Below, in pieces: positions 1,666 through 7,411 of a stretch of DNA of 15,942 bases. The notes beneath the pieces are model-generated. The model saw nothing but the letters and a program-made list of their open reading frames with translations, made no database searches and was not told the DNA's origin. Every line of letters begins with the position of its first letter. The stretch's first letter is position 1. The DNA comes from Lachnospiraceae bacterium (GTDB lineage Bacteria; Bacillota_A; Clostridia; Lachnospirales; Lachnospiraceae): positions 1 to 15,942 of the forward strand of contig JAFSFU010000300.1 of the NCBI GenBank assembly GCA_017435025.1. The letters run 5' to 3'. Both the position numbers and the translations under genes were made by a program.

Positions 1666-4600
1666 ATGAAAAAGCGGATTAAGAGACGTATTCTTTCCGT
1701 AGTGCTTTCTGCAGCAATGCTTCTTACAAGCACACCGGTGTACGCGGATGTCATGGCGGAACCGATCGACCCGGAAGTGGGTCTGTGCGAGCATCATACG
1801 GAGCATGAAGAGTGGTGTAGTTATGTTGCGCCGACGCCTGGAACTCCGTGCGGACATGAGCATGATGAAGCTTGCTATCGTGAAGTTCTGACATGTGGTT
1901 TGGAGGAAGATGTAACTGCGACTGACGGTAATTCTGCGCATATTCATGACGACGAGTGCTATGAACTAGAGGTGGATTGCCATCATGAACACGACGATGA
2001 GTGCGGCTATGTGGAAGCAAGTGCGGGTGCAGAGTGTGAGTTCACATGTGCAGAGTGCATTGCGCTGGAGGAACTGGGAGGCGAAGGTGAAGGTGTGTCA
2101 CCGTGGGTGATTAATGATCGATTTGCCGTAGATGGTCTTTGTTATAAAGAGATTGGTCCTGGCAAGGCGCAGGTATATGCGGTTGATGAGGATACTTTAG
2201 ACGATGTTGCCGGTGCGATTCAAATCGAATCAGAAGTAACAGATCCGGAGACATTAGAAGAATACACGATTACATCCATAGCAGAAGGTGTTTTCAAGGA
2301 TAATGATGATATTGTTTCCGTTACATTTGCAGAAGAATTTGAAGAAGATGATGCTATATTTCAAATTACCAAAATCGAAGATGAAATGTTTGCAGGATGT
2401 AGAAATCTTACTTCTGTAACGTATCCGAATACGGTCACAAGCATTGGTGATGGCGCGTTTGAGGGATGTAAGTCATTAAAGGAGATTGAGATTCCCAATG
2501 AGGTGACATCGCTCGGTGACGGTGTATTTAAAAATTGTACAAAACTTGAAAGTGTTGATTTGGGCAATATTACAATATTACCAGCTCATACATTTGAGGG
2601 ATGTAGTTCTCTTGAGAGTATTGACATTAGTGGATTATTAGAAATTGGTGACTATGCTTTCTACAATTGTTCTAAACTTACTGCAGTTGATCCGAACACA
2701 TTTTTGGGTGATGGGCTCACAACGATTGGTGGTTATGCATTTGCAAATTGTATCGGACTTGAAGACGGCTTTTTAGATCGAGTTTTAGTGTGTGATGGTT
2801 GCGACGTCGAATATTGGGATGAGTACGATGACTATTACGGCCAAGTATGTGCAGAGTGTTTGAAATCTGTAATGTTGATTCCAAATTCTATCGAAAGTAT
2901 TGGAACCGGAGCATTTGATGTAACAGATTCCACTGATATTGTAACAAAAGTGGTATGTACGAATGACTCTGCAACAGGATATGCTTATAGAATCGCAGAT
3001 ATGATTGCGAATGCTAGTAATGGCTTTTGTTCTCTTATTTGTATTGAAAATAGTGTCGCATTATACAATTCTTTTTACACGGATTGTTATATAGTTGATT
3101 CAGATACAGTTTATGCTCCTGATTCTGAAGGTTACTACAAGTCATATGAAATAGAATATGTCTATAAAATTAATGAGTATGCATCTTATGATAAAGCAGG
3201 AAAGGCAGAACTGATTTCTGTTGAGTATTTACCTGAAGATTGTGATGCACCTCAGCCGGCTTATTTAGAGATTTATGTTTGGGGACCTGTTCAGAAGTAT
3301 GATACATATGGAAACTTATACGATTATCAAGTGACCGGTATCAGCAATGATTTCAATATCGATTTATACGACATTCCATACGATGTTTATTTTGATTATG
3401 AGATTGAATATATTGGCAACAATGCTTTCAAAGATGAAAGTAACTTAATGAATGTCTATATAAATACAGAGTCTTTGGCAATTGGTGAGAGCGCATTTGA
3501 AAACTGTACATCATTAAGCGGAATCGAACCTAAAGGTCAAGAATCGCTTTTAAATATTGTTCCATTGACATCAGGAGGAAGCAATTTTGTGATTCCTCAG
3601 GGAATTCACACTATTGGTGATCGTGCATTTGCAGGATGTGATTATTTTTATGAAGTTGAAATTCCATATTCTGTTGAGAATATGGGGAAAGAAGTATTTG
3701 CAGAATGTGGAAATCTGCAGTATGTAACCTTTGCCAATCCGAAATATATTGAATTAGACAGAGGGACTTCTGTGGATTATGAAAATACCAAAGAAATTGT
3801 AATGGTTCCGGAGGGGATGTTCAAGGATTGTAAAAATTTGATTGGTGTAAAGATACCGGATACAGTAACTGAAATTGGTGCGAGTGCATTTGAGAACTGT
3901 CGTGAGTTTTATATGCTACTGCAGTATGAAAATTATAAAGATGAGTACGGGAATGAATGTTTTGATATTATCTATAACGAAGATGATTCTGTGCCTGAAT
4001 GCACACTTCCGTCTACGATTACCACAATTGGCTCTCGTGCATTTTACAGGTGTACAAAGTGGAACACAGTGTATGCCGGAGAAAACATTACTAGTGTTGG
4101 AACAAATGCGTTTAGCAAAGGAACAAGATTTATTACTGATAGTTCTATAGTTCAGCTGATGCTTGTAGCAAGTATCGATAACAACACTATTCCAGAAACT
4201 TCTTGGGACGGTTTTGCAGATGTTGAACCGGGAGCCATTGTTACGGTAGATGATGGTGCTATGCTTACCGGCGATATCGGTCAGAATGCAGAGGTAACAA
4301 TACCGGCTGGCAGTTCTGCAACAATTAATAAAACAACTAATGAAACAACTAATGAAACAATTAATGAAACAATCAACCTTGCTAAAGATGCAACGCTGTA
4401 TGTATCTGGTTCACTTGCTTTGAACGGAACAATTGCAGGACCAAACGAGGGTTACGCAACTATTTATATACCGGATCTTTCTTGTGTGACCGGAGAGGGA
4501 GGAGTTACTGGTAATATTAATTTGATCACAACGCTGAAATCCTCTATGATTCAGCTACCGGATGTTGATGAATATGCACATTCTGGTGAGGAAATAAAGC

Positions 4601-5721
4601 CAACACCGACAGTTACAGTAAAATTTGGTGGTCAGACATTTGTTTATATTGAAGATACAGATTATGAAGTTACATATTCCAATAACATTAGTACTGGAAC
4701 AGCGACAGTAATCGTAACAGTAAAAGATGGAGGCAATCTCCTTGGAAGAACCGCTCGCAAGAACTTCACCATCGGTAAAGCAACACCAACTGTTACTGCC
4801 AGCCAGCCAACAATCGATAAGACCAATGTAACTATAACTGCAGAAGTTTCCGGTGGCGTGGGTTCCGGTTATGATGGAACTATGACTATCCAGGTATTGC
4901 AGGATAACAAGGTGAAACTTGTAAAGAATATCCAGATGGATGGGTCTTCAACATCTGTAGAGTATACTTGGAATAATCTTTACAACGGCAACTACACAGT
5001 TAAAGCAATTTACAACGGTGACAGATATCATACATCTGCGACATCTGCTAATCAGGTTGAATTCACAATTAACGTAGCAGGAAACGATGCTCCGCTTGGT
5101 ACCGGCGGCTCTGGCGGCTCCGGTGGAGGTGGAGGCGGCGGTGGTACCGGCGGTGGAAGCACCGGCGGACAGGCGCCGGCAATTCCGGATCCGAACACAA
5201 ATCCGAACAATTCCGAACCGATCGATTGGGGTGTGATCACATTGGACCCGGTGAAGGGTTATGTGAGCAGCAACTATGGTATTATGGCAAGGGATAGCCA
5301 GGATAAGCACAGTACATGGAAAGTGGATGAGATTTCTGCTCTGATCTGGGGTGGAAATAAGGATGATTACTGGCAGCTTCAGTATCCGAATGGTTCTGTG
5401 GCGAAGGGCAGCACATCTGTAGATGAAAACGGTCAGCCGAAAGAAAATTACCTTTGGGAGCAGGACAACGGCAAATGGTGGGTATTTGATTCCAAGGGTT
5501 ATGCTAAGATGGGATGGGTATTTGACCCGAACTATCAGGCATGGTTCTACGTCCATGTGAAACATGGTATGATGACCGGCTGGATTCAGATTGATAATTT
5601 GTGGTATTATCTCCATGAAGTATCTGATGGACGCAAGGGCTGCATGTACGCAGCGACCAGAACACCGGACGGCTACTATGTAAGAGAAGATGGTTCCTGG
5701 GATGGCAAACCCAAACAGTAG
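1666..5721 (+). CDS. Large secreted BspA-like LRR surface protein with wall-binding C-terminus
   Basis: A 1351-residue exported protein. Start ATG follows AGGAGG by 7 nt. Residues 1-27 form a signal peptide (KKRIKRR, hydrophobic core, VYA before Asp28). Residues 41-131 are rich in Cys and His in HxHxxxC patterns. From about 205 to 826 run BspA/LRR_5-type repeats (pattern IGxxAFxxCxxLxxVxIPxxVTxIG), interrupted by a large Tyr/Asp-rich section and by a CxxC-x15-CxxC insert (376-398). Residues about 885-904 are a Thr/Asn tandem repeat in a likely beta-rich stretch. Two Ig-like domains follow (about 979-1140), then a Gly/Ser linker (1146-1168). The C-terminus (about 1262-1351) has aromatic WWVFDSKGYAKMGW- and MTGWIQIDNLWYY-type repeats resembling choline/glucan-binding wall repeats. 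There is no LPxTG motif. Such proteins are thought to act in adhesion or in host or polysaccharide contact; the ligand is unknown. The repeat middle is visibly more AT-rich than both ends, suggesting a mosaic origin. Confidence 0.85.
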   Translation: MKKRIKRRILSVVLSAAMLLTSTPVYADVMAEPIDPEVGLCEHHTEHEEWCSYVAPTPGTPCGHEHDEACYREVLTCGLEEDVTATDGNSAHIHDDECYELEVDCHHEHDDECGYVEASAGAECEFTCAECIALEELGGEGEGVSPWVINDRFAVDGLCYKEIGPGKAQVYAVDEDTLDDVAGAIQIESEVTDPETLEEYTITSIAEGVFKDNDDIVSVTFAEEFEEDDAIFQITKIEDEMFAGCRNLTSVTYPNTVTSIGDGAFEGCKSLKEIEIPNEVTSLGDGVFKNCTKLESVDLGNITILPAHTFEGCSSLESIDISGLLEIGDYAFYNCSKLTAVDPNTFLGDGLTTIGGYAFANCIGLEDGFLDRVLVCDGCDVEYWDEYDDYYGQVCAECLKSVMLIPNSIESIGTGAFDVTDSTDIVTKVVCTNDSATGYAYRIADMIANASNGFCSLICIENSVALYNSFYTDCYIVDSDTVYAPDSEGYYKSYEIEYVYKINEYASYDKAGKAELISVEYLPEDCDAPQPAYLEIYVWGPVQKYDTYGNLYDYQVTGISNDFNIDLYDIPYDVYFDYEIEYIGNNAFKDESNLMNVYINTESLAIGESAFENCTSLSGIEPKGQESLLNIVPLTSGGSNFVIPQGIHTIGDRAFAGCDYFYEVEIPYSVENMGKEVFAECGNLQYVTFANPKYIELDRGTSVDYENTKEIVMVPEGMFKDCKNLIGVKIPDTVTEIGASAFENCREFYMLLQYENYKDEYGNECFDIIYNEDDSVPECTLPSTITTIGSRAFYRCTKWNTVYAGENITSVGTNAFSKGTRFITDSSIVQLMLVASIDNNTIPETSWDGFADVEPGAIVTVDDGAMLTGDIGQNAEVTIPAGSSATINKTTNETTNETINETINLAKDATLYVSGSLALNGTIAGPNEGYATIYIPDLSCVTGEGGVTGNINLITTLKSSMIQLPDVDEYAHSGEEIKPTPTVTVKFGGQTFVYIEDTDYEVTYSNNISTGTATVIVTVKDGGNLLGRTARKNFTIGKATPTVTASQPTIDKTNVTITAEVSGGVGSGYDGTMTIQVLQDNKVKLVKNIQMDGSSTSVEYTWNNLYNGNYTVKAIYNGDRYHTSATSANQVEFTINVAGNDAPLGTGGSGGSGGGGGGGGTGGGSTGGQAPAIPDPNTNPNNSEPIDWGVITLDPVKGYVSSNYGIMARDSQDKHSTWKVDEISALIWGGNKDDYWQLQYPNGSVAKGSTSVDENGQPKENYLWEQDNGKWWVFDSKGYAKMGWVFDPNYQAWFYVHVKHGMMTGWIQIDNLWYYLHEVSDGRKGCMYAATRTPDGYYVREDGSWDGKPKQ
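4321..4377 (+). repeat. 12-bp in-frame tandem repeat
   Basis: The unit ACAACTAATGAA (Thr-Thr/Ile-Asn-Glu) occurs in about five consecutive copies: ACAATTAATAAA, ACAACTAATGAA twice, ACAATTAATGAA, then a degenerate ACAATCAAC. Because the unit is a multiple of three, copy-number change would alter protein length without breaking the frame. Confidence 0.85.
5101..5169 (+). repeat. Gly-codon-rich low-complexity linker
   Basis: A run of GGC/GGT/GGA codons encodes a Gly/Ser/Thr linker (residues about 1146-1168) between the Ig-like region and the C-terminal wall-binding module. It is a flexible hinge and a likely site for slippage or recombination between paralogues. The DNA is far more GC-rich than the adjacent coding sequence. 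Confidence 0.8.
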
Positions 5722-5747: not shown

Positions 5748-5780
5748 GGGGCTGTTGCGAAATAGCGACAGCCCCCATTT
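5748..5780 (+). terminator. Probable terminator after the surface-protein gene
   Basis: GGGGCTGTTGC (5748-5758) pairs with GCGACAGCCCC (5765-5775) over 11 bp with one G-U, around a 6-nt loop. The tail (CATTTATAGG) is only weakly T-rich, so some readthrough into arsM is possible. The hairpin ends about 18 nt before the arsM start. Confidence 0.6.
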
Positions 5781-5793
5781 ATAGGATAAGTAT

Positions 5794-6597
5794 ATGCAAA
5801 ATGAAAAGATGATTCCGGATGAAAATAATAGAGATGTCCATGACAGTGTCCGAAATGACTATAGCCAGATCGCAGCCGGTGATATGGATAAGACCATCCT
5901 GCATGTGACACGCACAACAGCAGAGATGTCTGCCAGCGTCGGCTATACAGAAGAAGAGCTGGCTTTGGCACCGGAGGGCGCCAATAAAGGTTTAGGATGT
6001 GGCAATCCGCATCGGAAGGCCAATATTCAGAATGGGGAAATTGTGCTGGATCTCGGCAGTGGAACCGGTCTGGATTGTTTCCTTGCCGGAAAAGCGGTAG
6101 GCAGAAGGGGACGCGCCATCGGTGTGGATATGACACCGGAAATGATCTCCAGGGCAAGACAGTTGGTAAAAGAAAACAAGATCCGCAACGTGGAGTTTCG
6201 CCTGGGTGAGATTGAGAATCTGCCGGTGGCAGACAATACGGCTGATGTCTGTATTTCTAACTGTGTCATCAATCTTTCTGACAACAAGCCGCGGGTATAT
6301 CGGGAGATTTACCGTGCATTGAAACCGGGTGGACGAATTTCCATCTGCGATATTGTGATCATGAAGGAATTGACGGAGGAGATGCAGAAGGATGAAGCCA
6401 TGCACTCCTGCTGAGTGTCCGGAGCTTCTTCAGTTGAAGAATTGCAAAGAATCATTGAGACTGCGGGATTTGTGGATGTGAATATCGAAACAAAGCCGGT
6501 TTCAAAAGAATATGAAGAGCAGTGGGGACGGGGACTTGCCATTGGTGAGTATGTGATGTCCTCTGCGATTACGGCTCAAAAACCGGAAAATAATTAA
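5794..6597 (+). CDS. arsM: Arsenite methyltransferase with in-frame TGA, candidate selenoprotein (Sec207)
   Basis: SAM-dependent methyltransferase of the ArsM/AS3MT family, which methylates As(III) bound to cysteines. Read through the TGA at 6412-6414 the product is 267 residues, about family length. Visible: GYTEEEL (50-56), GLGCGNP with Cys69, SAM motif VLDLGSGTG (84-92), GVDMTPEMI, LGEIENLPVAD, SNCVINLS with Cys157, and LKPGGRISICDIV. The family then has a conserved Cys followed by V/I/L-x-GA. Here that Cys position is the TGA codon, giving HSC-U-VSGASS. After it the frame stays open for 60 codons of recognisable ArsM C-terminus to a TAA. Cys69, Cys157 and residue 207 match the three arsenic-binding cysteines of human AS3MT (as I recall, 61, 156 and 206). 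A hairpin typical of bacterial SECIS elements follows the TGA. The alternative is a recent nonsense mutation. The ribosome site is weak (AGGA at 5783). The ArsM assignment is strong; selenocysteine decoding is inference. Confidence 0.8.
6412..6445 (+). promoter_or_regulatory. Candidate bacterial SECIS: UGA plus downstream hairpin
   Basis: The TGA codon (6412-6414) is followed after 11 nt by the perfect stem TTCTTC (6426-6431) with GAAGAA (6436-6441), enclosing the four-base loop AGTT. Below it G6424-C6445 and C6425-G6444 can also pair across a two-base bulge. The loop starts 17 nt after the TGA and has G in its second position. As I recall them, the published bacterial SECIS rules ask for a small apical loop with an early G, about 16-37 nt after UGA. 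The hairpin lies wholly in coding sequence, as bacterial SECIS elements do. Confidence 0.55.
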
Positions 6598-6655: not shown

Positions 6656-7411
6656 TTATTCTAAATAAAAAGTCATTGCCAGCATCAGACAGAAACCGGC
6701 AAGCAATGCGTAAGTTACGCCGCGCGCATCGTCGTGGTGGGTTTCCGGAATCATCTCGTCACTGATCACGTATAACATGGTTCCACCGGCGAATGCCAGA
6801 GCAAACGGCAAAATCGCGGAGGAGAGGCTGACTGCAAAATAGCCGAGAAGTGTTCCCAGCACTTCCACAACGCCGGTCATCATAGCGGCAACGAAGGTGC
6901 GCATCGGACTAAGTCCGGCTGCCAGCATCGGGGCAATAATGACCATACCTTCCGGGATATTCTGAAGAGCGATACCTAAGGCGATGGTGATCGCCTCACC
7001 GGTGTTTCCGGTACCGAAGCCGGCACCGGCGGCAATTCCTTCCGGAAGATTGTGGATCGCAATTGCCATGACAAACAGAAGAACTTTGTTCAGCTGATCA
7101 GTTTTCTGCGGGTGCGATTCCTGGTCCACACCAGCCAAATGGTGCAGATGGGGAACCAGTTTGTCCAGCAGATTTAGGCAGTAGGCACCGCAAAAGATTC
7201 CAAGTACTGTGACCGGGAGACCGGTTTCCCCACCATATTCCAGGGACGGGAGAATCAGACCGATCACCGCGGCTGCAAGCATGACGCCGGCGGCGAACGC
7301 CAGGACGATATCGCTGAAACGATGGGAGATATTTTTAAATAAAAAACCAATAACTGCACCAAATACTGTGGCGCCACCCACGCCAAGTGCAGTGAGAAGG
7401 ACCATTCTCAT
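6656..7411 (-). CDS. ZIP family divalent metal transporter
   Basis: A 251-residue polytopic membrane protein of the ZIP family (ZupT/GufA branch), which moves Zn2+ or other divalent cations into the cytoplasm. About eight hydrophobic helices are visible. The binuclear metal-site motifs are HNLPEG (120-125, TM4) and QNIPEG (150-155, TM5); the second has Gln where E. coli ZupT has His, as in the GufA-type branch. A His-containing loop (PHLHHLAGVDQESH, about 87-100) precedes TM4, and DEMIPETHHDD (218-228) lies before the last helix. ATG is preceded by AGGAGG (complement of 7421-7426) at 9 nt. This ribosome site overlaps the glycerate kinase stop codon, so the two genes are cotranscribed and perhaps translationally coupled. 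The family is certain; the exact metal is not. Confidence 0.9.
   Translation of the reverse strand: MRMVLLTALGVGGATVFGAVIGFLFKNISHRFSDIVLAFAAGVMLAAAVIGLILPSLEYGGETGLPVTVLGIFCGAYCLNLLDKLVPHLHHLAGVDQESHPQKTDQLNKVLLFVMAIAIHNLPEGIAAGAGFGTGNTGEAITIALGIALQNIPEGMVIIAPMLAAGLSPMRTFVAAMMTGVVEVLGTLLGYFAVSLSSAILPFALAFAGGTMLYVISDEMIPETHHDDARGVTYALLAGFCLMLAMTFYLE

Follow-up and report, generated by a model that had tools for sequence, protein, structure and literature searches.

Arsenite methyltransferases (ArsM) that carry selenocysteine (Sec) are an already known kind of protein. Arsenite S-adenosylmethyltransferase appears as a selenoprotein in a table row with the counts 8, 4, and 245, and the same source says that this selenoprotein occurs in prokaryotes and eukaryotes (PMC2398784). 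A second survey has an entry of 39 organisms and 41 selenoproteins for the Sec form (PMC5029168), and a third tabulates it as well (PMC9312934). In an entry of a further catalog, the family model NF008823 is listed as a selenoprotein with the motif UxxG and the example WP_011987699.1, credited to Fomenko et al. 2007; double-Sec ArsM fusions are catalogued in the same source (PMC13188914). In addition, the annotated arsM coding sequences of two Paraclostridium bifermentans plasmids (L120 and L121; CP124691.1 and NZ_CP094934.1) already span a TGA codon. The initial annotation had suggested that a Sec-containing ArsM of this type was not known from a gut anaerobe; given these four sources and two plasmid records, its claim of novelty is not supported. 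Among the matches listed from the open-licence literature, we found no paper on a Sec-ArsM of Lachnospiraceae.

The DNA analyzed here (the window) is a stretch of 15,942 nucleotides from a Lachnospiraceae bacterium, and its arsM-type gene is, on comparative evidence, a well-supported further example of this kind of protein. Our reading, to which we assign a probability of roughly 0.93, is that the product is an ArsM-type arsenite S-adenosylmethyltransferase and that the UGA at 6412–6414 would be decoded as Sec by SelB and tRNA-Sec, guided by a stem-loop.

The arsM-type gene, its ligand positions, and its neighbors

Inspection of the frame showed that the TGA at 6412–6414 is the sole in-frame stop within 5794–6597. 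Under the standard code, the open reading frame (ORF) ends there after 206 aa; if the TGA is read through, a complete ArsM lies in one frame from ATG to TAA, with 60 sense codons past the TGA, as the initial annotation had proposed. The read-through product scored 294.3 bits against the NCBIfam arsenite methyltransferase model NF008823, above the curated cut-off of 263, and it also matched methyltransferase domains in Pfam. The features of the gene are as follows.

5794..6597, + strand: arsM-type gene, ATG to TAA, 267 residues with the predicted Sec207
5998..6000, + strand: Cys69 (GLGCGNP), predicted arsenic ligand by alignment to solved ArsM; kept in 120/120 of the best of 8000 scored database proteins
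6262..6264, + strand: Cys157 (SNCVIN), predicted arsenic ligand by the same alignment; likewise kept in 120/120
6409..6411, + strand: TGC, Cys206, directly 5′ of the predicted Sec codon; Cys in 120/120 of the same proteins
6412..6414, + strand: in-frame TGA, codon 207, predicted Sec at the third arsenic-ligand position (from the frame, the alignment, and the codon count of the column)
6415..6597, + strand: tail after the TGA, 60 sense codons and the TAA stop, under purifying selection

The top five solved-structure matches of the window protein are all arsenic or arsenite methyltransferases. In the alignment with the solved ArsM chain 4kw7, residue 207 pairs with the Cys that precedes L-G-G-A, residue 69 with the Cys of GCG, and residue 157 with the Cys of SNC; in the third of the matched chains, the motif aligned with Cys69 reads GAG, not GCG. 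The three As(III)-binding thiol positions of the family thus match Cys69, Cys157, and position 207 of the window protein, which places the TGA at the third arsenic-binding Cys, where the initial annotation had put it. For human AS3MT, Cys61, Cys156, and Cys206 are described as modelled arsenic ligands, with Cys156 and Cys206 required in both methylation steps and Cys32 and Cys61 in the first (PMC3877260). Matched via the algal enzyme, the human ligands Cys61, Cys156, and Cys206 would correspond to 69, 157, and 207 of the window protein. The cysteines of the latter are at 69, 95, 153, 157, 185, and 206, with none N-terminal to 69.

Left of arsM lies a gene for a BspA-type leucine-rich-repeat surface protein (1666–5721), and right of it, a ZIP transporter gene (6656–7411, minus strand). 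Further out in the window are genes for glycerate kinase, a two-component system, a RelA/SpoT-type protein, D-aminoacyl-tRNA deacylase, and an aminopeptidase, with EF-Tu at the left end. By eye, we also observed a GC-rich inverted repeat, GGGGCTGTTGCGAAATAGCGACAGCCCC, at 5748–5775, ending 18 bases upstream of the arsM start; it may terminate the surface-protein gene or be a leader element. In a related genome (G329, locus L128), about 1.1 kb separates EF-Tu from glycerate kinase, and its 16-kb stretch contains no match to the window arsM, surface protein, or ZIP protein. Since these are the three genes that lie between EF-Tu and glycerate kinase in the window, the window arsM sits in a variable stretch.

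Among the window genes scanned, no ars gene was seen beside arsM, and the arsenic role of this copy therefore rests on family membership. This bears on an alternative that differs from our reading in substrate only, namely, that the protein is an ArsM-family selenoprotein acting not on arsenite but on another soft element or compound, such as antimony, selenium, or mercury species. The window copy is not alone in its setting, as two further copies (L131 and L132) have no recognizable ars neighbors among the flanking genes scanned. A relative in Faecalicatena contorta ET52 (L001) can be read both ways. Its TGA-bearing ArsM is fused to an N-terminal domain (L001:4538–6784) and lies directly 3′ of a SaoE/SO_0444-like permease gene (below cut-off). 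The upstream genes (L001:579–4533) encode a double-cubane-cluster reductase, an ArsR/SmtB regulator, and an MTH895/ArsE thioredoxin, all above cut-off, together with an MtaA-like methyltransferase and a CobW-like GTPase, both below cut-off. By their sequence matches, these genes resemble an organometal-handling cluster. The adjoining MtaA-like methyltransferase and double-cubane reductase would suit a different substrate, but the ArsR/SmtB and MTH895/ArsE-type neighbors point to arsenic, as does the NF008823 score of the window protein. Moreover, relatives that group with the TGA genes in the tree occur in plasmid ars gene rows: CP124691.1 has the order arsR–phosphoesterase–acr3–arsM, and NZ_CP094934.1 has arsR–phosphoesterase–arsM. 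On balance, we consider a substrate other than arsenite unlikely.

The N-terminal domain of the F. contorta fusion was assigned to DUF2703 by its likeness to the database protein P0026; its NF049942 score of 53.3 is below the cut-off of 70. P0026 and a second database protein, P0064, combine PF10865 with a methyltransferase. Among the literature matches listed, none joins DUF2703 and a selenoprotein.

Codon 207 in related genes and the hairpin beyond it

Relatives were collected with the arsM protein. The first locus set, the best 80 of at least 580 confirmed relatives, had TGC in 37, TGT in 34, and TGA in nine loci at column 207. The extended set combined these loci with genome-search loci and plasmid loci, one of the sources being 30 of the matches listed; 115 loci aligned across the column, and dropping seven duplicates left 108 distinct ones. 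Their codons are TGT (42), TGC (40), and TGA (26), and no other codon occurs. Together with the window, there are 27 TGA genes. The 26 TGA relatives have 56 to 61 further open codons past the TGA, and their frames end 57 to 62 codons on. In a draw of 299 genomes from the family of G001, three have an arsM match, and all three carry TGA. In 24/26 TGA genes versus 7/82 Cys genes, a further Cys lies one or two positions ahead of column 207; these counts come from related, not independent, rows.

We then compared substitution rates between the window and seven TGA relatives. In the tail, pN is 0.14–0.31 and pS 0.60–0.86 per site; in the part before the TGA, the corresponding values are 0.15–0.29 (non-synonymous) and 0.68–0.88 (synonymous). 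The dN/dS of the tail is 0.07–0.20 in five of the seven comparisons, the other two being saturated, and that of the part before the TGA was computable in one comparison only (0.105). The tail is thus under purifying selection. It had been anticipated that only Cys or TGA would occupy column 207 and that the gene would not show the decay of a pseudogene; all 108 loci and the conserved tail agree with this. A frameshift or pseudogene was rejected on the basis of the conserved tail and the column identity.

In a tree of 109 rows, a single branch (100/99) separates the 27 rows with TGA from the 82 with Cys, and one Cys/TGA change is found in 100% of 200 bootstrap trees, from a bootstrap that was not fully settled (0.986). 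The window clusters with L001, L086, and L002 (four rows, 100/91) and then with L087 (five rows, 100/99). Two distant ArsM-like genes (L114 and L115, 36–37% identity) have TGA in the same column, with the motifs HGT-U-VGGA and YGS-U-VGGA. They sit on a very long branch (4.17), so their place is unsure and the TGA may or may not have arisen a second time.

The initial annotation had also pointed to a hairpin just past the TGA, and this part of the gene holds one further feature.

6426..6441, + strand: candidate SECIS upper stem-loop, TTCTTC-AGTT-GAAGAA, with the loop from 18 nt past the TGA and a G at the second loop position

Published rules for the bacterial SECIS call for a loop of 3–9 nt, a stem of 4–16 bp, a G in the first two loop bases, a spacing of 16–37 nt, and a minimum free energy (MFE) of −7.5 kcal/mol or less (PMC13188914). 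The window hairpin falls within those on stem, loop, G, and spacing. The lowest-energy fold of the window sequence contains the conserved hairpin when 36 to 48 nt are folded and another apical loop at 51, 54, and 60 nt; for the 51-nt stretch, the alternative loop reaches −9.3 kcal/mol, within the energy limit, and forcing the conserved hairpin gives −7.4 kcal/mol, just outside it. No Rfam match at gathering level was found in the window.

Taken alone, the window hairpin is ordinary. Its stability was matched by 17% of 300 synonymous resamples (rank 0.17), and we rejected it as stand-alone proof since the peptide explains much of it. Ranks of 0.05 or less were obtained for 3/27 TGA genes and 2/82 Cys genes. 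The stronger evidence is the conservation of the hairpin in relatives. Leaving aside L114 and L115, the inner five pairs are intact in all 25 TGA genes versus 5/82 Cys genes, and in 3/10 Cys genes whose peptide is similar; 14 of the 25 have a mismatch in the outer pair, and a single pair shows one T-A to C-G exchange (L106). L114 and L115 have other stems at almost the same place, with ranks of 0.0 and 0.02. With a less strict rule, 27/27 TGA genes and 22/82 Cys genes show some hairpin there. The hairpin is present where the initial annotation had seen it, with an inner stem conserved in every close TGA gene, but it is unexceptional in the window by itself.

Selenocysteine machinery in relatives and the reading of the TGA

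The first SelB and tRNA-Sec scans took 50 of the 80 loci. SelB was above the curated cut-off in 13/13 TGA genomes tested (G001–G009, G167, G174, G529, and G530) and in 13/41 genomes with the Cys form; the 13 belong to a set that also includes 11 other TGA genomes and the hosts of both plasmids. Both genomes of the distant pair, L114 and L115, have SelB. tRNA-Sec exceeded the Rfam cut-off in 11/13 TGA genomes, nine of which (G001–G009) scored 61–70 bits; the exceptions, G174 and G530, have the TGA gene and SelB, yet no tRNA-Sec above the cut-off. Because this cut-off is permissive (5/14 control genomes pass), we gave SelB more weight. For the Lachnospiraceae group, selA and selD were above cut-off in all four of the TGA genomes tested (G001, G002, G167, and G174).

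We also looked at the genomes closest to the window. When 397 genomes were ranked by DNA identity in the aminopeptidase gene, G098 (84%) and G612 (83%), two members of one genus, came first. In G098, neither SelB nor tRNA-Sec was above cut-off, and no selA or selD was found; this genome also has no match of EF-Tu strength and so looks incomplete, which is not proof, and little weight attaches to the absence. In G612, a SelB fragment reaches the end of a 4,153-base contig and a selD with an in-frame TGA is spread over two contigs, but no selA or tRNA-Sec was above cut-off; in G113, the genes for tRNA-Sec and SelA immediately precede selB, at the point where the G612 contig stops. selA and selD were not found in G648, from the genus of G098 and G612, and none of these three members of the nearest genus has an arsM match. 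SelB, tRNA-Sec, selA, and selD are all present in G113 and G329 (77% and 75% aminopeptidase identity).

These data bear on whether the TGA is a true stop, in which case the gene would make an ArsM cut short at 206 residues, as a pseudogene or as a shorter enzyme. Two observations speak for it: the best 120 of 8000 scored database proteins (188 to 455 residues) all end exactly at Cys206, like the standard-code ORF, where gene callers stop, and the nearest relative examined, G098, is without detected Sec machinery. Truncation would, however, cost an arsenic ligand, and it is at odds with a tail under purifying selection and with 26 relatives that place TGA in exactly that column and then continue with open codons. 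We therefore consider it very unlikely. It is conceivable, since a readable frame by itself names no residue, but highly improbable that some other amino acid is inserted through a suppressor tRNA or a variant code. Two genes of the window, one for the histidine kinase and one of 160 aa, end in TGA, and an altered code was rejected on this ground; no in-frame TGA was found in the 12 other window genes checked, Cys is the sole substitute in relatives, as expected for Sec, and SelB accompanies TGA.

The predicted Cys-Sec subclade and its relation to known systems

The shared end of the database proteins at Cys206 fits a large subclade that gene callers would cut off at the same codon, which was seen as TGA in the DNA of the window, L001, L002, L086, and L087. 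The vicinal Cys206-Sec207 pair of the initial annotation, its Sec predicted, is in line with the Cys206 invariant among these proteins. One of them, P0027 (455 residues), has by eye a second methyltransferase-like domain before an ArsM domain that likewise stops at the Cys ahead of the presumed TGA. Surveys of arsM built on proteins ending at Cys206 would misread the subclade. As far as our searches reach, the less described parts are the invariant Cys before the TGA in this subclade, the DUF2703-ArsM fusion, and the distant TGA pair.

If the UGA is read as Sec, SelB and tRNA-Sec would decode it with the stem-loop after an 11-nt spacer as guide. Sec207, Cys69, and Cys157 would then form the As(III)-binding triad at which methyl groups from S-adenosylmethionine (SAM) are added. 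We infer the chemical effect of the Cys-Sec pair, and the mechanism beyond the arsenic-ligand position, as follows. Sec may help arsenic binding and the recycling of the oxidized enzyme, because it is the better nucleophile and easier to re-reduce. Cys206 would be the likely resolving thiol, forming a selenenylsulfide, because the first Cys of the window protein is residue 69, whereas the first methylation by human AS3MT involves the N-terminal Cys32. For the host, an anaerobe close to gut Lachnospiraceae, the enzyme may serve arsenic detoxification or the production of methylarsenite. A bolder proposal is that gut Lachnospiraceae have an ArsM subclass in which the vicinal Cys-Sec acts as a selenenylsulfide redox switch that replaces the N-terminal redox Cys, making methylation selenium-dependent; we regard it as possible but doubtful.

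Our results indicate a conserved subclade of selenium-dependent arsenic methylation. If functional, it would tie arsenic methylation by gut microbes directly to selenium supply. With Sec in the place of an arsenic ligand, there is also a natural Cys/Sec enzyme pair with which to test what selenium gains in arsenic chemistry, and it is the Cys-Sec subclade that merits an experiment.

Compared with known systems, the window protein is like the eukaryotic and algal As(III) methyltransferases (human AS3MT; 4kw7 and 4fr0) in that the three arsenic-binding positions align; those enzymes have Cys instead of Sec, longer chains, and differ from the window protein, which has no Cys before residue 69. 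It has the ArsM domain in common with the double-Sec fusions NF041537 (AhpD), NF041536 (DUF2284), and NF047649 (UXPK-star). The window protein itself is not such a fusion, as it reached 163.8, 145.2, and 152.2 bits against the respective cut-offs of 510, 575, and 460 and has 267 residues with no second Sec domain. As a separate observation, an AhpD/CMD-family gene (L003:5402–5821) lies just upstream of a Clostridium Sec-ArsM, AhpD being the fused partner in NF041537 proteins. The Sec-ArsM of Clostridium and Paraclostridium falls with the window among the TGA rows of the tree and has the same hairpin, and the copies of plasmids CP124691.1 and NZ_CP094934.1 have 53.9% and 54.4% identity to the window protein; unlike the latter, these proteins have their extra Cys two residues before Sec (C-G-U), and the two plasmid copies adjoin ars genes. 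Finally, the window protein shares with the catalogued selenoprotein arsenite methyltransferase (PRK11873/NF008823) the same family model and the same Cys/Sec exchange, and its U207-V-S-G fits UxxG. It differs from this selenoprotein, whose example WP_011987699.1 was compared by motif, in belonging to a Lachnospiraceae-type subclade with a Cys directly before the predicted Sec.
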